Shown here in pieces: positions 3,636 to 14,778 of a stretch of DNA of 64,000 nucleotides. The notes beneath the pieces were generated by a model that had not been told where the DNA came from, searched no databases, and saw only the letters and a program-made list of their open reading frames with translations. The DNA lies in assembly GCA_027449125.1 (NCBI GenBank), contig DAIDME010000014.1, positions 1 to 64,000 on the forward strand, given 5' to 3'. The DNA comes from Solirubrobacterales bacterium (lineage in GTDB: Bacteria; Actinomycetota; Thermoleophilia; Solirubrobacterales; Solirubrobacteraceae). Every line of letters begins with the position of its first letter. The stretch's first letter is position 1. Both the position numbers and the translations under genes were made by a program.

Positions 3636-4313
3636 GTGAGCATCTCCAACCTCAACCCACTCGAGAAGACCAGCCTGCGCGAGAAGGTGGCGAGCGCCCT
3701 GCGAGCAGCCATCATGGCCGGCGAGATGGAGCCTGGGGTCATCTATTCCGCGCCGTCGCTGGGTGAGCGCTTCGGAGTGTCCGCCACGCCCGTGCGCGAA
3801 GCGATGATCGACCTCGTGCGCGAAGGTCTGGTGGAGACGGTGGCCAACAAGGGTTTCCGGGTCACGGACATGACTCCGTCAGACTTCGACGAGATCATCG
3901 AGATTCGTCTGCTGCTCGAGCCACCGGTGCTGCGTAAGGTCACCGAGTTCATCCCCGAGCGGGACTTCGACCACCTGCAGAGCCTGGCGCAGACGATCGT
4001 GGACCGGGCGGCCGAGGGGGACCTCGTGGAGTTCATGGCCGCGGACAGCGTGTTCCATCTGGCGCTGATCGCCTACGCCAGCAACAGCAGGCTTGCGGCG
4101 CTGGTCGCCGACTTGCGTGCGCACGCTCGGCTTTACGGCCTGGACACGTTGAGGCGCAACGGGACGCTGATGGATGTCGCTCGCTCGCATCTGACCCTTG
4201 TGGACACGCTGCGGACTCGTGATGGAGCTGCCGCCGAGCGGTTGCTGACGGCTCACATTCTCGATACGCGCAGGCAGATGGCCAAGGAAGCGTTGGCGCT
4301 GGCCGGGAACTGA
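3636..4313 (+). CDS. GntR family regulator, FadR/FCD subfamily
   Basis: SLREKVASALRAAIMAGEMEPG...VSATPVREAMIDLVREGLVE; FCD-type C-terminus. Confidence 0.9.
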   Translation: MSISNLNPLEKTSLREKVASALRAAIMAGEMEPGVIYSAPSLGERFGVSATPVREAMIDLVREGLVETVANKGFRVTDMTPSDFDEIIEIRLLLEPPVLRKVTEFIPERDFDHLQSLAQTIVDRAAEGDLVEFMAADSVFHLALIAYASNSRLAALVADLRAHARLYGLDTLRRNGTLMDVARSHLTLVDTLRTRDGAAAERLLTAHILDTRRQMAKEALALAGN

Positions 4314-4320
4314 CGGCGCC

Positions 4321-5793
4321 TCATTCGCCGGCCAGGTGCGCGAGCGGAACCGGAGCGCACGGAAACTGCTTCGCCAAGGGCCTGAGATCGTCGGCTGTCA
4401 GCGCCCTCCCCTGCCCGCCGGCCGCCAGCGAGGCGCTCGCGTAGCCGCAGACGTGACCCTGGCACCAGCCCATAGCGCAGCGTGTCAACAGCTTCAGTGT
4501 GCGGGCATCGTTGGCGCCGAGCTCGGTGATGGCGTTGCCGAGCGTGGCGTAGGCAACCTCCTCGCAGCGGCACACAAGCGTCTCCGCCGTCAGCCACTGA
4601 GGCCAACGCGCTGGAACCGGATGCGCGTCGTGCATCGCCGCGGCGAAGGCACGAAGCCGACCGATCTCACGGCGCAGTGCCCGTACACGCGCGCGTTCCA
4701 GGTGGCCAGCTTCGGCGGCCACGATGCCGGCGAGCTCACCCCCGGCCAGCGCCAGCATGGCGCCGCCGACTCCTGTTGCCTCGCCGGCTATGAAGACTCC
4801 GGGAACCGTGCTCTGTTGATCGTCGTCCACCACTGCCACCAGCGACTGGTCGGCATCGATGCGCGTCTGCGCGCCGACCGCGTTGATGAGCTCCAGTGAC
4901 GGCGTGAACCCCCATCCGAGTGCGACCAGGTCAACTTCGAGTCTCTGACGCGCCTTCTCCACGAGCCCTCCGGGACCGACCCGCGCGAGTTCCACCGCGC
5001 CGACCTGTGTGCCTGAAGCGTCGGGGTCTACGCGGGTCAAGACCGTCGCGGTTCTATAGGGGATCCGCGCGCGTGCCAGCGACCGCGCGTAGGTGGCCGC
5101 TTCGCTGACCTTGGCAGGCGTGCGCGCAACGACCGGCATGTGCCTCATCCACCGGGCCAGACCGTTTGCCTCGCACACCGCGAGCACGTCCACGCCGTGG
5201 CGCGCGAGCTGCTGGGCGACCGGCAACAAAAACGGCCCCGTCCCGGCAACGACCGCACGCCGCCCGGAGAGCGTGTGATGCCCCTTGAGCAACGCCTGGA
5301 CTCCGCCCGCGGCCATGACGCCGGGGAGATCCCAGCCGGGGATCGGAAGCTGCCGGTCGTAGGCGCCCGGGCAGAGGATGAGACGCTCGGCGCATACGGT
5401 GCGCGGCGGCGTCTCTCGGGATGGCGGGCCGCCGGGCATGAGGTGCAGAGTCCAGCTCTGTCGCCCGCCGCCGGCAGCGGGCGGCTCGACGAACCACACG
5501 TGCGTGGACGCGAGGTGAACCGCCGCACCGGTCTGGCAATGTCGCAGGATGCGCTCGCGCAGCGCCAGGAACTCACCCCAATCGCGGTAGCCGGCTAAGC
5601 GTGTGGGGTCTGTGGTCGACTCGTCCGGGTGGCGCCAGTACTGGCCTCCGAGTTGGTGGCCAGCGTCGATCAGGACTACCCGTACGCCTGCCCTCGCCGC
5701 CGCAGCCGCGGCGCCCAGGCCGGCTGGCCCGGCGCCCACCACGGCGACGTCGAACACGGTCTGCTCGGCGGCGCTGGAATGTTGCCCGCTCAT
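4321..5793 (-). CDS. FAD-dependent oxidoreductase, HcnB-like subunit of putative D-hydroxyproline dehydrogenase
   Basis: N-terminal FAD motif VVGAGPAGLGAAAAAARAG; C-terminal LVCRCEEVAYATL...RCAMGWCQGHVCG BFD-like Cys domain. Confidence 0.85.
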   Translation of the reverse strand: MSGQHSSAAEQTVFDVAVVGAGPAGLGAAAAAARAGVRVVLIDAGHQLGGQYWRHPDESTTDPTRLAGYRDWGEFLALRERILRHCQTGAAVHLASTHVWFVEPPAAGGGRQSWTLHLMPGGPPSRETPPRTVCAERLILCPGAYDRQLPIPGWDLPGVMAAGGVQALLKGHHTLSGRRAVVAGTGPFLLPVAQQLARHGVDVLAVCEANGLARWMRHMPVVARTPAKVSEAATYARSLARARIPYRTATVLTRVDPDASGTQVGAVELARVGPGGLVEKARQRLEVDLVALGWGFTPSLELINAVGAQTRIDADQSLVAVVDDDQQSTVPGVFIAGEATGVGGAMLALAGGELAGIVAAEAGHLERARVRALRREIGRLRAFAAAMHDAHPVPARWPQWLTAETLVCRCEEVAYATLGNAITELGANDARTLKLLTRCAMGWCQGHVCGYASASLAAGGQGRALTADDLRPLAKQFPCAPVPLAHLAGE

Positions 5794-6131
5794 CGGGCGA
5801 GCGCGTCGTATGCAGGCGGCGTCTTGGCCGGTGCGCTTGTCGTCAGCCTCATGCCGTCAACCACTGGCAACAGGCACGCGCGCAGGTTCGGCACGCCGTC
5901 GGCGGTGATCAGGCAGTCGTAACAGATGCCGATTCCGCAGAACAGGCCGCGCGGGCGCCCGCCCCGCCGCGTGTGGCGCCAGGACCTGACACCCGCGTCG
6001 GTCAGTGCCGCGCCCACCGACTGGCCTGGTCGAGCGGTCAGCTCGCGGCCGTCAAGCGTGAACTTCAATACGCGCGCTGCGGCCGCTGCCAGCGCGTGCT
6101 CGTCGGTTGGGCGCTCACCCGTTCCGGTCAT
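5790..6131 (-). CDS. (2Fe-2S)-binding HcnA-like subunit of putative D-hydroxyproline dehydrogenase
   Basis: FTLDGRELTARPGQSVGAALTDAGVRSWRHTRRGGRPRGLFCGIGICYDCLITADG. Confidence 0.85.
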   Translation of the reverse strand: MTGTGERPTDEHALAAAAARVLKFTLDGRELTARPGQSVGAALTDAGVRSWRHTRRGGRPRGLFCGIGICYDCLITADGVPNLRACLLPVVDGMRLTTSAPAKTPPAYDALAR

Positions 6132-7336
6132 GCCGATGCCGATGCCGCGGCCGCGAAGCGCGCTGGCGAGAAGGGTTCGAGGTCGATGTCAGTGACCTCC
6201 CCCGCCAGCGCCTGACTGATCAGCTTGCCCGTTCCTACCGAGAGACCGATCCCCGCACCTTCGTGCCCGCCTGCATGCCAGAGGCCCGCGACCCGGGCAT
6301 CGGATCCGATCACGGGCAGGTGGTCGGGGGAATAGGGACGGAAGCCGGCGTAGCTGCGCAGGACGCGGGCGCCCGCGAGCCTCGGAAACAGCGCGACGGC
6401 GGCGTTCGCGATTGCGCGCAGCGCCGGTAGAGACATGGCAGCCTCGAAGCCGACGTGCTCGCGCGAGGACCCGATGAGGACGGTTCCGGATTGGGTGCCC
6501 TCGACCACGGCTGAGACCTCCAGCCCGAGGTTCTCGGATTGCGTCGAGGCCACGTATTCGCCCGCGTAGACCTTGTGATTGATGGTTGGTGGCAGCGGCT
6601 CAGTGACCAGAACGAAGCCTCGGCGCGGCATGATCGGCAGCTCGACCCCCGCCATGGCCGCGATCGCCCCCGCCCACGGTCCCCCAGCGTTGACGACGTG
6701 TCCGCAGCTGACCGTTCCCTGCGACGTGCGAACGCCCACGACGCGCCGGCCTCCGGCTTCCGGTCTGAGGTCGAAGCCGACGACGTTGGCACCGGTTGAG
6801 ACCAGGGCTCCTCGTTCACGGGCGAGCTTCAGCAGGTTGGCGGTCAAGAGCATCGGCTGGACCTGTGCATCCTGCGGGTAGTGGACCGCCGCTGCGAGCC
6901 CCGCGCGGATGTGAGGCTCGAAGTCTCCAATGGCCACGGGGTCAACATCGCGCGCGTCAACGCCCCGCTGCCGTTGTCCGGCGGCGAGCTCGAGCAGCGC
7001 CCGCCCGGCTGCCGCGCTCGCCGCGACAACCAAGCCGCCCTTGGCCTCGAACTCCCAGCGGTCGGCGTATTCGGCTAGCTCCTCACTCCACGTTGCGCGG
7101 GAATAGAGCGCCAGATCGAGCTCGTAGCCTGCCACCTTGTCAGAGACGAGCACGTTGCCCTCCCCTGCGCTGCTAGAGCCGGCGGCGACACCGCCACGCT
7201 CGAGCACGTGCACCGCGAATCCCTTGCTTGCAAGGAAATACGCGCAGGCAGCGCCGACCGCGCCGGCCCCGATGACGACGACATCAGCGCCACGCGGCGC
7301 TGCGGCGCTCCGGCCGTTCGAGCCGGGCGCCTGCAT
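6128..7336 (-). CDS. FAD-dependent oxidoreductase (DAO/HcnC-like) subunit of putative D-hydroxyproline dehydrogenase
   Basis: ADVVVIGAGAVGAACAYFLASKG; HAGGHEGAGIGLSVGTGKLISQ; start MQAPGSNG... abuts the upstream gene's stop. Confidence 0.85.
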   Translation of the reverse strand: MQAPGSNGRSAAAPRGADVVVIGAGAVGAACAYFLASKGFAVHVLERGGVAAGSSSAGEGNVLVSDKVAGYELDLALYSRATWSEELAEYADRWEFEAKGGLVVAASAAAGRALLELAAGQRQRGVDARDVDPVAIGDFEPHIRAGLAAAVHYPQDAQVQPMLLTANLLKLARERGALVSTGANVVGFDLRPEAGGRRVVGVRTSQGTVSCGHVVNAGGPWAGAIAAMAGVELPIMPRRGFVLVTEPLPPTINHKVYAGEYVASTQSENLGLEVSAVVEGTQSGTVLIGSSREHVGFEAAMSLPALRAIANAAVALFPRLAGARVLRSYAGFRPYSPDHLPVIGSDARVAGLWHAGGHEGAGIGLSVGTGKLISQALAGEVTDIDLEPFSPARFAAAASASA

Positions 7337-8352
7337 CAGAGCAGGAACCCGGTCGGGAAGGGATCGGACGGGTCGAGCAGGTACTGGGCGACGCCGGTGA
7401 CCCAGGCGCGGCCACGCACGGTGGGGACAACGGCCCGGAGCGTCGAGCCGTCGGTGGCAACGATTTCGCACTCGTCGATCAGCTCGCCGACGAAGCTCGA
7501 ACCGATGAACGACTCGTTGATGAACTCCTGGTGCAGGCTCAGCTCGCCGCGCGCGTGCAGCTGCGCCATGCGGGCGCTCGTGCCGGTCCCGCAGGGCGAG
7601 CGGTCGAACCAGCCCGGATGAATCACCATCGCATGCCTCGAGCGTTTCGCGTCGGACCCGGGTGCCTGCAGATAGACGTGGTGGCAGCCGGTGATGTCGC
7701 TGCGGGCCGGGTGTACCGGCGATGCCTGGGCGTTGATGGCATCCATGATCGCCAGACCAGCGTCGAGCAGGCGCTGCTTGGCGGCGCGATCGAACGGAAT
7801 GCCGAGCTCCTCCAGGGCGACGATCGCGTAGAAGTTCCCGCCGAAGGCCATGTCGAAGCGAACCGGGCCGAGCGCCGTCACCTCAACCACTTGATCCAAG
7901 CCCACGTTGAAGGACGGCACGTTGCGGATACGCACCGACTCAGCGTGTGAGTCTCTCACCTCCACCTCGGCGACGACCAGGCCTGCGGGCGTCTCCAACC
8001 TGATCACAGTCAGCGGCTCAACCACTGGGACCATGCCGGTCTCAACGAGCACGGTCGCGGTCCCGATCGTGCCATGACCGCACATCGGCAGGAGCCCCGA
8101 GACCTCGATGAACAGCACCCCGAAGTCTGCGTCGGGGCGCGTCGGTGGCTGCAGGATCGCGCCTGACATGGCGGCATGACCGCGCGGCTCATACATCAGC
8201 AGTGTGCGCAGCTCGTCGCTGTGCTCGGCGAACCAGAGGCGGCGCTCAGCCATGCTCGCCCCGGGAATCGTGCCGACGCCGCCGGTTATGACACGCGTCG
8301 GCATGCCCTCCGTGTGCGAGTCGACCGCCTGGATTACACGCGTGGCTCGCAT
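7336..8352 (-). CDS. 4-hydroxyproline 2-epimerase (proline racemase family)
   Basis: MRATRVIQAVDSHTEGMPTRVI; both catalytic Cys present: MCGHGTIGTAT and SPCGTGTSARMA. Confidence 0.9.
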   Translation of the reverse strand: MRATRVIQAVDSHTEGMPTRVITGGVGTIPGASMAERRLWFAEHSDELRTLLMYEPRGHAAMSGAILQPPTRPDADFGVLFIEVSGLLPMCGHGTIGTATVLVETGMVPVVEPLTVIRLETPAGLVVAEVEVRDSHAESVRIRNVPSFNVGLDQVVEVTALGPVRFDMAFGGNFYAIVALEELGIPFDRAAKQRLLDAGLAIMDAINAQASPVHPARSDITGCHHVYLQAPGSDAKRSRHAMVIHPGWFDRSPCGTGTSARMAQLHARGELSLHQEFINESFIGSSFVGELIDECEIVATDGSTLRAVVPTVRGRAWVTGVAQYLLDPSDPFPTGFLL

Positions 8353-8357
8353 AGGCC

Positions 8358-9824
8358 CTACGCGCCGGCGCTCGGGCGCGGCAACTCCGGCTGCCCGTCG
8401 ACCAGCCGCGGAGCCACCGACTCGTCCCCGAGTTCCGCCGGCAGAAGCGCCACCGGGAAACCCTGGAAGGCAACCGGCCTGGTGAACCGGTCGATCGCCG
8501 CCGTCCCGACCGACGTCGTGCCAGGAGCGGTCGTCGCCGGATACGGACCACCGTGCTGTTGCGCGTGTGTCACGGAGACACCGGTTGACCACTGGTTCCA
8601 CAGCAATCTGCCGGCCTTCGTCACGAGCACGGCGGTGAGCTCACGGGCGATGGCGTCGTGCTCCTCGGCCGCCAGTGTGGCGGTCAGCTGGCCGTCGAGC
8701 GCGGCGGCTACCTCGAGCAGCTGCTCTGTGGCGGTGTACTCGGCGATCAGGACAGTCGGGCCGAAGCACTCGGTCAGCAGCGAGCGCTGGTCGGCGATGA
8801 CGGCATCGGCCGTGGTGAGCAGCACGGTAGGCGCGGGTGGATCGCTCAACGCGCCCTCGCCCTCGTTGAGCACCTGGACGGCCGGATGCGCACGCAAGCG
8901 CCGCTCACCCGCGAGATAGAGCTCGGCGATGCGGCCGTTGAGCAGTGGTGCGGGGGCTGGGAGCTCGCGTACCCGCAGCGCCGAAACGAGACTGGCGCCG
9001 GCCGGCGCGAAGACCACACCGGGCTTTGTGCAGAACTGTCCAGCGCCTAGCGTGAAGGACCCGACCAGCCCTTCAGCTATCTGCTCGCCCCGCGCGGCGT
9101 CGGCCGCGGGAGTCACGAACACGGGGTTCACCGAGCTCAGCTCGCCGAAGAACGGGATCGGTTCCGGCCGTGCGGCAGCGATGTCGTAGAGCGCCCGCCC
9201 GCCCGCGAGCGATCCGGTGAACGCCGCGGCTTTGACGAGCGGATGGCGGAGAGCGGCAACGCCGGCCTGTTCGCCGAAGATCACCTGGAAGGTCCCTGCC
9301 GGGGCGCCCGCCCGCTCCAGTGCTCCGGCCACGAGCTGACCGGTCCTCTCCGACAGCTGGGGGTGCCCCGGATGCGCCTTGAGGATCACCGAGCAGCCTG
9401 CGGCCAGCGCCGAGGCCGTGTCACCGCCGGCAACCGAGAATGCAAACGGGAAATTGGAGGCCGCGAATACGACCACCGGGCCGACAGGCACCCGCCACCT
9501 ACGGATCTCTGGGCGCGCACCCATCGGCCAATCCGGGGCGGCGTGGTCGACGCGCACGTCCAGATAGCCGCCGTCGCAGACCGTGTCGGCCAGCAACCGC
9601 AGCTGAAAGGTCGTGCGCACGAGCTCGGATCTCAGACGCGGCTCTCCCAGGTGGCTCTCGGCGAGCGCGAGGGGAACCAGTTCATCAGCCGCATCATCGA
9701 GCACCGCAGCGGCCGCACGCATCGCGTCCGCACGGCGCACACGGCCGAGCTCTGCCCACTGCTCCCAGGCCGCCTGTGACCGTCGCGCGATCACGTCGAT
9801 CTCATTTTGCTGTGTCTCTAGCAC
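8358..9824 (-). CDS. Aldehyde dehydrogenase, 2-ketoglutarate semialdehyde dehydrogenase type
   Basis: VFAASNFPFAFSVAGGDTASALAAGCSVILKAHPGHP; FFGELSSVNPVF; GAGQFCTKPGVV. Confidence 0.88.
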   Translation of the reverse strand: MLETQQNEIDVIARRSQAAWEQWAELGRVRRADAMRAAAAVLDDAADELVPLALAESHLGEPRLRSELVRTTFQLRLLADTVCDGGYLDVRVDHAAPDWPMGARPEIRRWRVPVGPVVVFAASNFPFAFSVAGGDTASALAAGCSVILKAHPGHPQLSERTGQLVAGALERAGAPAGTFQVIFGEQAGVAALRHPLVKAAAFTGSLAGGRALYDIAAARPEPIPFFGELSSVNPVFVTPAADAARGEQIAEGLVGSFTLGAGQFCTKPGVVFAPAGASLVSALRVRELPAPAPLLNGRIAELYLAGERRLRAHPAVQVLNEGEGALSDPPAPTVLLTTADAVIADQRSLLTECFGPTVLIAEYTATEQLLEVAAALDGQLTATLAAEEHDAIARELTAVLVTKAGRLLWNQWSTGVSVTHAQQHGGPYPATTAPGTTSVGTAAIDRFTRPVAFQGFPVALLPAELGDESVAPRLVDGQPELPRPSAGA

Positions 9825-9894
9825 TCGCGTCTCCCGGGGCCGAGGATTGCCCTCATCGCAGCTCGCACCGTCAGGCTAGCGCCGGCGTGGCTCA

Positions 9895-10803
9895 TCAGTG
9901 GTAGCCCTTCGCGAGCGCTGCCTCGGTATCGCGCCTGATCCTGTCTGCGGCCTCCGGCGCCAGCGCGCCGCGTGGCGGGCGACACGCACCGCCCTTGCGT
10001 CCAACCACATCCATGGACAGCTTTATCGCCTGCACGAACTCCGTCTGCGAGTCCCAGCGCAGCAGTGAATGCAGGTCACGGTAGATGGTCAGCGCGTCCC
10101 CCAGCGCAGACGGGTCGGCGGAGGTTGTGAGCTCGTAGAGGTGGGTGGCGGTCGCCGGCAGCGCGTTGGTATACCCGGCGACCCAGCCGACCGCACCTGC
10201 GACCCCGAGCTCGAACAGCACGTCGTCGGCGCCGATCAGCAGATCAAGGTCCGGCGCGAGCTCCGCGATCTGATAGGCGCGCCGCACGTCTCCAGAAAAC
10301 TCCTTGACTGCTCTGATGAACCCCTCGGCGTGCAGCTCGGCCAGCAGCTCGGGCGAGAGGTCGACCTTGGTGTCGTGCGGGTTGTTGTAGGCCACGATCG
10401 GCAGCCCCACCTGCGAGGCCGCGCGGTAGTGCGCGATCACCGCCTCACGGTCCGCGCGGTAGCTGTTGGGCGGCAGCAACAGCACCGATTGGGCACCCGC
10501 CAACGCCGCCTGCTCGATCCAGCGCAACACCTCGAGCGACCCGTAGGCCGCCACACCCGGCATCACTCCGAACCCACCGCCTCCAGCCTGGACGGCGACC
10601 TCCACGACCCGCGCGCGCTCCTCGGCCGTGAGCGTCTGGTACTCGCCCAGCGACCCGTTCGGGCAGACGCCGTCCACCCCCTCCTGAGCCTGCCACCGCA
10701 CGTGCTCGGCGTAGGCGTCGTAGTCGACGCCCAGGCGGTCGTCGAAGGGCAGCGCGGTCGCTGTATAGACACCGCGCCAGGGCGCGTCTCCGGGGATCGT
10801 CAT
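9895..10803 (-). CDS. DapA superfamily protein, probable 1-pyrroline-4-hydroxy-2-carboxylate deaminase
   Basis: GVYTATALPFDDR...GSLGEYQTLTAEER..., Schiff-base Lys context FIRAVKEFSGDVRR; hydroxyproline operon context. Confidence 0.8.
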   Translation of the reverse strand: MTIPGDAPWRGVYTATALPFDDRLGVDYDAYAEHVRWQAQEGVDGVCPNGSLGEYQTLTAEERARVVEVAVQAGGGGFGVMPGVAAYGSLEVLRWIEQAALAGAQSVLLLPPNSYRADREAVIAHYRAASQVGLPIVAYNNPHDTKVDLSPELLAELHAEGFIRAVKEFSGDVRRAYQIAELAPDLDLLIGADDVLFELGVAGAVGWVAGYTNALPATATHLYELTTSADPSALGDALTIYRDLHSLLRWDSQTEFVQAIKLSMDVVGRKGGACRPPRGALAPEAADRIRRDTEAALAKGYH

Positions 10804-11967: not shown

Positions 11968-12083
11968 CTAGGCCAGCAACTCGTCGCACAGGCTACCGAG
12001 GTTATGCACGTAGGCATCAACGGCCTCATCGGGATGAACGACCGAAAGCGTCCACTCCTGGTCTCTGTCGGGTGGAGGACAAA
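11968..12083 (-). pseudogene. C-terminal remnant of a class III aminotransferase
   Basis: Minus frame GVCPPPDRDQEWTLSVVHPDEAVDAYVHNLGSLCDELLA*; preceded by an in-frame TGA; resembles the C-terminus of GSA-aminomutase-type aminotransferases. Confidence 0.4.
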
Positions 12084-13225
12084 CGCCTCACCGAGACCCC
12101 TTCAGATGCCTACGAGCCGCGGAACTCCGGGGTGGAGCTGTGCTCCTATGACCTGACCTACGTAGACGGCGACTACGTGATGTCACGCGGGCGTGTAGTC
12201 AATGCGCTTGCGAGCACCGTCGTGCGTCTGACGACGGCAGACCGGCGCTCCGGCTTCGGCGAGACCTGCCCGCTGGGGTCCAACTACCTGCCGGCGCACG
12301 CGGCCGGGGCGCGCGCCGCGCTGGCCGAGCTGGCCCCACAGCTGATCGGCGCCGATGCCACCAACCCAACCGCCCTGACCCGCCTGATGGATCGTGCTCT
12401 GGCGGGCCACCCCTACGCCAAGAGCGCCGCGGACATAGCCTGCTGGGATCTCCTGGGCCAGTACGCCGGGCGGCCCGTCTGTGACCTGCTAGGCGGCCGC
12501 AACAGCGAGCGCTTTCCGCTGTATGTGGCGATATCCCTGGGCTCGCCCGCCGAGATGGCCGAGCACGTGCGCGAGCTGCGCAGCCGCGACATTCACCGCT
12601 TTCAGCTCAAGCTCGGCGAGGACCCGGTCGAGGATGCCGCGCGTGTCCACGCTGTGGTCCGGGCCACAGAGGGAGGCGACGTTGTGGTCGCCGACGCCAA
12701 CGGCGGCTGGTCTCTGCGCGATGCGCTCACCGCCGTCCGACTGATCGACGAGCTACCTGGAATCTTTCTGGAGCAGCCGTGCGCAACCTTCGAGGAGTGT
12801 CTGCGCGTGCGCCGTCGCAGCTCGCTGCCGATGTCCTCGACGAGGTCATCACCGACGTGGCGAGCCTGCTGCGCGCCTGGGAGAGCCACGCGCTCGAGGG
12901 CTTCAACCTCAAGATCAGCCGGGTCGGCGGCCTGACCAACGCCAAGCTGCTGCGCGACATCGGCGAACGGCTCGGTCTGATCGTCAACATCGAGGACTCG
13001 TGGGGCGGTGACCTGACGACGGCAGCCGTCAGCCACCTGGCCGCCAGCTCTGCAACCGAGTCGCTGGTGATGGTGTCCTTCATGAACGACTGGACCAACG
13101 AGCACATCGCCGGACACCAGCCGCGTTCAGACGCGGGCTTCGGTGCCGCTCCGCGCGCACCGGGATTGGGCATCACCGTCGATATGGAGGCCCTGGGTGA
13201 GCCGTTCGCGACATTCAGCACGTAG
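12072..13225 (+). pseudogene. Mandelate racemase/muconate lactonizing enzyme family protein with a single frameshift
   Basis: ORF 12072-12935 (VVNALASTVVRL...DIACWDLLGQYAGRPVCDLLGG...VVADANGGW...IFLEQPC) continues in ORF 12779-13225 (VLDEVITDVASLL...FNLKISRVGGLTNAK...NIEDSWGGD); junction near 12828-12833, consistent with one missing base. Confidence 0.8.
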
Positions 13226-13246: not shown

Positions 13247-14170
13247 TCACGCCGCCTGACGCTCGGGCCGCAGAGCGGTCAGCCGCACGAGGTTGCGCAC
13301 GGCCATCGCCACCGTCATCGGCCCGACCCGCGGCACGAACGCCGAAGCGACCTCCAGCACCGAGTCGTCGAAGTTGCGCAGCTGCGAGAAGTTCACGCAG
13401 ATCGCGCCCGGTTTGATCTCGGCGCCTCCGACCAGGGGGAACTCGCGCGAGGGCACTCCGGTGATGACCACGTCGGCTGCAGCCAGGGCGGCGGCGCGGT
13501 CCTGGCCACCGTCGCGCATCGCATATGCCCGCCGGCCGATCGCGGGCTCGAAGATGACCACGCCGTCGAGGTCGAGTGAGATCACGGTGGCACCGTCGTT
13601 GGCGAGCATCGCCGCGAGCGGCCGGCCGACGATGTCGCTGCGGTTGATGACACAGGCAACCACACCCTCAAGCGGTGCCTTGGGGTGGGCTCCGGGGGCG
13701 TGTAGACCCGCCTCCTCGAGCAGCTTCAGGATGCCGAGCGGGGTACAGGGCAGCACTGCGGGTATCGTCCGGGCGTCGTCCACGAAGCGGCGGTTCTCAT
13801 ACAGGAGCCGGCTCCAGAAGCTGTGCATGCCCTCGACGTCCTTGCGCGGATCGACGAGCTCACGCGCCCAGCGATCCTCCTGTGCGTCGACCAGCGGGTA
13901 GTAGAGGAAGATGCCGTCAACCGCCGGGTCGGCGTTGGCGGCACGGATTGCCTCGGGGACCTCACCAGGCTCGAGCTCCCACAGGTCCATCGTGACCCCC
14001 GTCTCCTCGGCGCCGCGGCGGGCGTACTGCGCGTAGGTATGGGCGGGACCGTCGGCCTGGCTGAGCAGACCCACCAGGCGCAGGTCACGACTCAGCGCCG
14101 CGACCTGCTCGCGCGTCTGCGCGCGGAATGGCTCGGCGACCGCGGCGGCATCGATCACGCGTGCGCTCAC
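13247..14170 (-). CDS. FolD-superfamily methylene-THF dehydrogenase, Mtd1-like, probably monofunctional
   Basis: KDVEGMHSFWSRLLYENRRF, VLPCTPLGILKLLEEAG, VINRSDIVGRPLAAMLANDGATVISLD; the usual YxxxK reads YAQYA. Confidence 0.8.
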   Translation of the reverse strand: MSARVIDAAAVAEPFRAQTREQVAALSRDLRLVGLLSQADGPAHTYAQYARRGAEETGVTMDLWELEPGEVPEAIRAANADPAVDGIFLYYPLVDAQEDRWARELVDPRKDVEGMHSFWSRLLYENRRFVDDARTIPAVLPCTPLGILKLLEEAGLHAPGAHPKAPLEGVVACVINRSDIVGRPLAAMLANDGATVISLDLDGVVIFEPAIGRRAYAMRDGGQDRAAALAAADVVITGVPSREFPLVGGAEIKPGAICVNFSQLRNFDDSVLEVASAFVPRVGPMTVAMAVRNLVRLTALRPERQAA

Positions 14171-14778
14171 GCGGGCGCGCCGCCTTCGCTCAGGCGTGCG
14201 ACCAACACAGCGCGCCGGTCGTGCAGCTCGTGGCGCTCAGGCGCAGCCGAGGACTCGAGCGCCGCAATGTTGACATCCGCGGTGCGCAGCGCCGCGAGCC
14301 CGGCCCCTCGCAGCAGGTCGCGCCCGGCCAGCACGTCGCTCACGATGCTCGCCTTGACCAGCGCCTCGGCCTCGTCGGCAAGGTCGATGCCGGCGGCGCA
14401 GTGGTCTCCGATCCACAGCGCGTGGCCGGCGGCGCTCGCCGTCAGGTCGGCGACCGTACGCGCGCGCTCGGTCCGCTGGGCTTCGCTGCCGCGCGGCATC
14501 CGGTAGCCGCGCATGAGTAGATCGAACGCCTCAACATCACGGTCGGCGCCCTGGGCCAGCGAGCCACGCAACCGCTGAGCTCGCGTCTGCGTCTCCGCCA
14601 GCTGCGTGCGTGCAGCTTCGTCTGCGGTCTGAATGGTGACCGCGAGCGCCATCTGCACGAGGCCCGCGCCGAAGGCACCAACGACCGCCGCGATCGCGCC
14701 GCCGCCCGGGGTCGGATCGGCTGAGGCGGTGCGTGCGAGCAGCTGTTCGGCGGTCACGTCCCAGAGGCTCTCGGTCAC
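14167..14778 (-). CDS. Cyclodeaminase/cyclohydrolase family protein (FchA-like methenyl-THF cyclohydrolase)
   Basis: GTG start VTESLWDVTAEQLLARTASADPTPGGGAIAAVVGAFGAGLVQMA; 4-bp overlap with the dehydrogenase gene. Confidence 0.85.
   Translation of the reverse strand: MTESLWDVTAEQLLARTASADPTPGGGAIAAVVGAFGAGLVQMALAVTIQTADEAARTQLAETQTRAQRLRGSLAQGADRDVEAFDLLMRGYRMPRGSEAQRTERARTVADLTASAAGHALWIGDHCAAGIDLADEAEALVKASIVSDVLAGRDLLRGAGLAALRTADVNIAALESSAAPERHELHDRRAVLVARLSEGGAPA

Follow-up and report, generated by a model that had tools for sequence, protein, structure and literature searches.

Besides Mtd1, yeast possesses trifunctional C1-THF synthases, and in Methylobacterium/Methylorubrum the dehydrogenase and the cyclohydrolase are two proteins, FchA and MtdA, the latter using NADP and belonging to a different dehydrogenase family. 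Yeast Mtd1 is monofunctional according to the title of Barlowe and Appling 1990 (cited in PMC6443876 and PMC11064299), and a gene-family survey, in the part available, treats MTD1 as fungal only (PMC11064299). Acetate-oxidising and acetogenic bacteria have fchA and folD in common clusters (PMC3584212), and references listed in PMC7793690 indicate that a dehydrogenase linked to NAD and a cyclohydrolase distinct from it were purified long ago from Clostridium formicoaceticum. Split dehydrogenase/cyclohydrolase systems are already known, both as MtdA/FchA and in clostridia.

The locus described here shares features with each of these systems. Its dehydrogenase falls in the same clade as yeast Mtd1 (PDB 1edz) and has its full-length fold, Tyr at Gln100, Glu at Asp125, a cofactor-site Asp and no catalytic Lys; unlike yeast Mtd1, it is bacterial, its kind is usually encoded with an FchA partner, and most of the actinobacterial group carries Ala at the Lys position where yeast has Thr. 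As in the MtdA/FchA system, the dehydrogenase and the FchA-type cyclohydrolase are two proteins, and the nearest structure to the latter is the FchA of that very system (7vg4), but the dehydrogenase is Mtd1-type. The fchA of acetogens and acetate oxidisers also neighbours a FolD-superfamily gene (PMC3584212), but within Wood-Ljungdahl clusters with fhs, the likeness being drawn from published descriptions. Bifunctional FolD (E. coli, 1b0a) has the same fold and two-domain layout but lies in a separate clade, at about 26-30% identity, and its K, Q and D are replaced here. What appears to be new is the bacterial Mtd1-type dehydrogenase, its pairing with FchA, a documented loss of folD and a rule linking the catalytic Lys to FTCD_C proteins; in the open-access literature we found neither bacterial Mtd1-type enzymes nor a replacement of FolD by such a pair.

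The window, the whole 64,000-nucleotide stretch analysed (contig DAIDME010000014.1, positions 1 to 64,000, from a Solirubrobacterales bacterium, GCA_027449125.1; genome G000), carries an fchA-type ORF (gene B, fchA) followed on the minus strand by an mtd1-like ORF (gene A, mtd) (Table 1). Both ORFs lie where the initial annotation had placed them and share 4 bp (GTGA), and every motif it quoted for the FolD-superfamily ORF is present. The mechanical ORF of gene B extends to 14982, past the GTG start at 14778. The operon structure is read from the sequence, and the overlap makes translational coupling of fchA and mtd likely. The same overlapping arrangement is found in two congeners, G012 and G021, whose copies of gene A are 92-93% identical to it with a dN/dS of ~0.06-0.08, so gene A is not a chance ORF. 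In the same congener pairs (window versus L004 and L005), fchA is 56-59% identical with a dN/dS of ~0.5, as against 92-93% and ~0.07 for mtd; fchA evolves much faster than mtd.

Table 1. Features of the mtd-fchA pair in the window and of the former folD slot in three genomes
Feature	Position	Strand	Basis
Gene A, Mtd1-like methylene-tetrahydrofolate dehydrogenase (predicted), 307 aa, GTG start	13247..14170	-	PF00763 + PF02882; 1edz; Mtd1 clade 100/100
Gene B, FchA-type methenyl-tetrahydrofolate cyclohydrolase (predicted; FTCD_C family), 203 aa, GTG start	14167..14778	-	PF04961; 7vg4
4-bp overlap GTGA, fchA stop / mtd start	14167..14170	-	sequence
Ala50 codon, position of FolD catalytic Lys (human Lys56; YAQYA)	14021..14023	-	alignment
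Tyr90 codon, position of FolD Gln100 (Tyr in yeast Mtd1)	13901..13903	-	alignment
Glu113 codon, position of FolD Asp125 (Glu in yeast Mtd1)	13832..13834	-	alignment
Asp200 codon, end of second Rossmann beta strand (His in FolD)	13571..13573	-	alignment; model strand 195-200
PTPGGG motif of FchA protein, family-wide conserved loop	14698..14715	-	PGGG invariant in alignment A2
Former folD slot inserts between pcrA and gatCAB	L192:4775-7943, L193:5520-8305, L194:3259-6436		unknown protein + ABC/FtsX genes

Elsewhere in the window, positions 3636-10803 likely hold a hydroxyproline catabolic cluster, composed of a GntR/FCD regulator, a three-piece FAD/2Fe-2S/DAO oxidoreductase, a proline-racemase family gene, an aldehyde dehydrogenase related to 2,5-dioxovalerate dehydrogenase and a DapA-like gene. 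An enolase-superfamily (MR_MLE) gene is apparently split over two reading frames on the plus strand (12072-12935 and 12779-13225); it is one 420-aa frame in G012 (L169:8778-10040) and G021 (L175:1032-2294).

Gene A belongs to the FolD superfamily and is of the Mtd1 type, a resemblance that the initial annotation had proposed and that sequence, fold and phylogeny now confirm. Both FolD domains are matched in Pfam (PF00763, 5e-16; PF02882, 1e-16), and the best NCBIfam score, 89.8 against a cut-off of 411, lies far under every FolD equivalog cut-off shown. In a phmmer search of the PDB, yeast MTD1 (1edz) is matched at 2.9e-54 and FolDs at 6.6e-16 or worse; a profile built from the bacterial Mtd1-like proteins widens this to 1.8e-88 for 1edz versus 1.3e-26, and the score gap to yeast Mtd1 is 181-210 bits versus at most 73.5. 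The AlphaFold2 model of the gene A protein (mean pLDDT 90) superimposes onto 1edz in Foldseek with a TM of 0.92 (E 3e-30), with 37% identity over the fold alignment, ahead of a next match at 2.3e-19. A maximum-likelihood tree of 76 proteins, in which the only fungal sequence is yeast Mtd1 (residues 6-311 of 1edz), places gene A outside the FolD clade: a 100/100 branch sets yeast Mtd1 and 12 bacterial proteins, gene A and 11 others, apart from 63 FolDs. Within this group, the bacterial Mtd1-like proteins cluster together with a support of 86/89.

Genome-wide presence and absence were judged by family searches. The pair is present in G000, G012 and G021, which encode no other PF00763 protein, so the check for a canonical folD elsewhere in the genome comes back empty for the window's genome and for both congeners with the pair. 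A partial PF02882 match on contig C93 was considered as a FolD and rejected, being below cut-off with no accompanying PF00763 match. A fourth genome of the genus, G026, has mtd1-like alone, with FTCD_C nowhere in the genome, and keeps canonical FolD; wherever else in the genus a FolD-superfamily gene turned up, it was FolD without an mtd1-like gene. Outside the genus, mtd1-like genes occur in eight genomes. Six of these have an adjacent fchA (Propionibacteriales, L024; Proteobacteria, L026-L030), and none of the six has canonical FolD. The remaining two keep it: Auraticoccus, with no FTCD_C, and a Myxococcales bin, in which FTCD_C lies elsewhere, not adjacent. Where the two genes are adjacent, canonical FolD is absent (9/9 genomes); where mtd has no fchA beside it, canonical FolD is kept (3/3), and two of these three genomes lack FTCD_C entirely. 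The exact probability of this split (9/9 versus 0/3) would be 1/220 if the genomes were independent, which they are not; counted by clades, the comparison is about 4 versus 3 (1/35).

The gene order is fchA-mtd in G000, G012, G021 and L024 and mtd-fchA in L026-L030. Chance adjacency of the two genes is ruled out, because linkage occurs in both orders and in different phyla (Actinomycetota and Proteobacteria). No further pair was found among the 396 other genomes of the phylum sampled (a draw of 397, in which the window's own genome was the only one), so the pair is sporadic, a distribution consistent with horizontal transfer. In the gammaproteobacteria L027-L030, mtd-fchA lies between an SIS-domain sugar isomerase-like gene and a downstream gene, which is DUF885 in the two genomes tested.

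The two-gene operon very probably replaces bifunctional FolD, an Mtd1-like dehydrogenase and an FchA-type cyclohydrolase splitting its two steps. This is the split C1 module that the initial annotation had suggested, and the phylogeny, the active-site substitutions and the pattern of FolD absence and retention all support it. The Mtd1-like enzyme, lacking the Lys/Gln pair that FolD uses for methenyl-THF hydrolysis, would oxidise 5,10-methylene-THF to 5,10-methenyl-THF, probably with NAD+. The FchA-type enzyme would then turn methenyl-THF into 10-formyl-THF, which would feed the synthesis of purines and formyl-Met and which the FTHFS of this genome could interconvert with formate. We infer the catalytic activities, the preference for NAD, the action of FchA on methenyl-THF and the direction of flux.

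Gene B encodes a stand-alone FTCD_C protein (PF04961, 7.7e-33), in agreement with the family initially assigned to the overlapping gene. Its nearest solved relative by sequence, profile and fold is FchA of Methylobacterium extorquens (7vg4), and its model (mean pLDDT 91) reaches a TM of up to 0.88 against chain B of that structure. With 90.4 bits against a cut-off of 275 for the NCBIfam FchA equivalog NF045657, it is related to the curated equivalog and lies outside it. Both this score and the fast evolution of fchA count against the replacement of FolD by the pair. Fast as fchA evolves, the PGGG loop and a few other residues are invariant (alignment A2). The window's genome has a second FTCD_C gene, adjoining FTHFS (L145:819-1484, contig C89), in which PAPASG replaces PTPGGG, as it also does in G012 (L173). 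A protein similar to this PAPASG-bearing FTCD_C is encoded in G018 (L114).

Gene B could act in formimino-THF chemistry. FTCD_C proteins include cyclodeaminases, and the window's genome also encodes a stand-alone formiminotransferase; gene B might thus be the formimino-THF cyclodeaminase of a histidine-type (formiminoglutamate) pathway, feeding methenyl-THF to the Mtd1-like enzyme for reduction, with the second FTCD_C beside FTHFS, or the Mtd1-like enzyme itself, serving as cyclohydrolase. We consider this unlikely, given that gene B is nearer to M. extorquens FchA than to cyclodeaminases by both sequence and fold and is linked to mtd, not to the formiminotransferase, and given that the second FTCD_C lacks the PxPGGG loop. 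Moreover, each of the six outside genomes that have the pair and lack FolD has that single FTCD_C only. Although the genome contains the formiminotransferase and the second FTCD_C, the linkage of gene B to mtd and the loss of FolD suggest that it probably hydrolyses methenyl-THF, as the replacement of FolD by the pair would have it.

The key residues of human MTHFD1 include Tyr52, Lys56, Gln100 and Asp125, and in the cyclohydrolase step Lys56 may serve in proton transfer (PMC3368264; PMC6443876). Gene A departs from this YxxxK/Gln/Asp set, carrying the motifs YAQYA, GIFLYYP and KDVEG at the corresponding positions; YxxxK aligns to YAQYA, and the catalytic Lys is absent, as the initial annotation had it. 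The same holds across the clade: all 13 Mtd1-side proteins have Thr or Ala for Lys, Tyr for Gln100, Glu for Asp125 and an Asp at the cofactor site, whereas the 114 FolDs in the alignment have Lys in 107, Gln in 110, Asp in 108 and His in 110. Since the Lys, Gln, Asp and His positions are all substituted, gene A is expected to have lost cyclohydrolase activity and, from the acidic Asp200, to prefer NAD over NADP.

What exactly the Lys does in the cyclohydrolase step is under debate (PMC9173628), which leaves some room for gene A to retain cyclohydrolase activity by another mechanism, with gene B as an accessory. We regard this as highly improbable: both the Lys and the Gln are replaced in gene A as they are in Mtd1, the yeast enzyme is described as monofunctional in the title of Barlowe and Appling 1990, and genomes with gene A but no adjacent fchA always keep FolD.

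The former position of folD can be located. FolD-bearing congeners share the order pcrA-folD-membrane gene-gatC-gatA-gatB (L170-L172), and in G000, G012 and G021 the same neighbours flank a common insert of ~2.8-3.2 kb where folD stood. In G012, this insert encodes a PIN-domain protein, an unknown protein and an ABC ATPase with an FtsX-type permease. A search of the pcrA-gatCAB slot for a decayed folD remnant found none (best E about 0.1). Completeness is ~92% for G000 and ~69% for G021, and G012 forms one contig of 3.46 Mb, on which FolD is absent; because of the congeners and the folD locus, a missed folD in the 92%-complete G000 is unlikely. These loci give direct evidence that folD was lost from its ancestral slot, and that its absence does not reflect incomplete assembly. 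That FolD is present but missed, the pair being merely an addition, is scarcely credible: the incompleteness of G000 and G021 speaks for it, but the single contig of G012 has no FolD, all three assemblies span the slot and show other genes inside it, the same absence recurs in six unrelated genomes, and the reading is already contradicted.

Loss of the Lys is also seen outside the Mtd1 clade. Five FolDs in the alignment (L047, L053, L057, L085 and L091) have Gln for Lys and Glu for Asp, and each is the sole FolD of its genome. Four of the five genomes are labelled Planctomycetota, and the unlabelled one (L091) groups with two of them. An FTCD_C gene is present in all five. Seven genomes whose FolD is intact served for comparison, two of them likewise Planctomycetota or planctomycete-like according to their titles, and none of the seven has an FTCD_C gene. 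G049, which belongs to the window's order, offers a second type of pair: its sole FolD has Leu for Lys and adjoins an FTCD_C gene (L164, 4276-5819). From the 5/5 versus 0/7 genomes together with G049, FolD seems to lose its Lys in genomes that have an FTCD_C protein, and to have lost it more than once. The converse fails, as many congeners carry both FolD and FTCD_C. Beside a normal FolD, contig C52 of G017 (L166) carries a very divergent second FolD-like gene with Ile for Lys, Leu for Gln and Glu for Asp. A wider reading, which we put forward tentatively as a possibility short of probable, is that the cyclohydrolase activity of bacterial FolD was lost repeatedly and independently (in the Mtd1-type clade, in Planctomycetota with Lys to Gln and in G049 with Lys to Leu), and in every case only where its work passed to an FTCD_C/FchA protein; Mtd1 of fungi would then be a branch of this mostly bacterial split system, which the two groups share through ancient gene transfer.

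To our knowledge, FolD is nearly universal in bacteria and essential in many, and it is a drug target; the inhibitor carolacton is bound in a solved structure of E. coli FolD (PDB 5o22). Whether bacteria with the pair escape FolD inhibitors is a question raised by the present locus. FolD appears to be gone from an actinobacterium and some unrelated bacteria, in which a yeast-Mtd1-like dehydrogenase and a separate cyclohydrolase, encoded by neighbouring genes, would carry out its two steps; this swap is directly readable in their genomes. Within one genus, FolD has been removed and replaced, and sister species with intact FolD serve as natural controls. Yeast Mtd1 has close bacterial relatives, and the pair possibly offers an NAD-linked module for synthetic one-carbon pathways. 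The comparisons suggest a simple genomic rule, that an FTCD_C partner is required wherever the sole FolD-superfamily protein lacks the Lys, which would help annotators to spot genes mis-labelled 'bifunctional FolD'.
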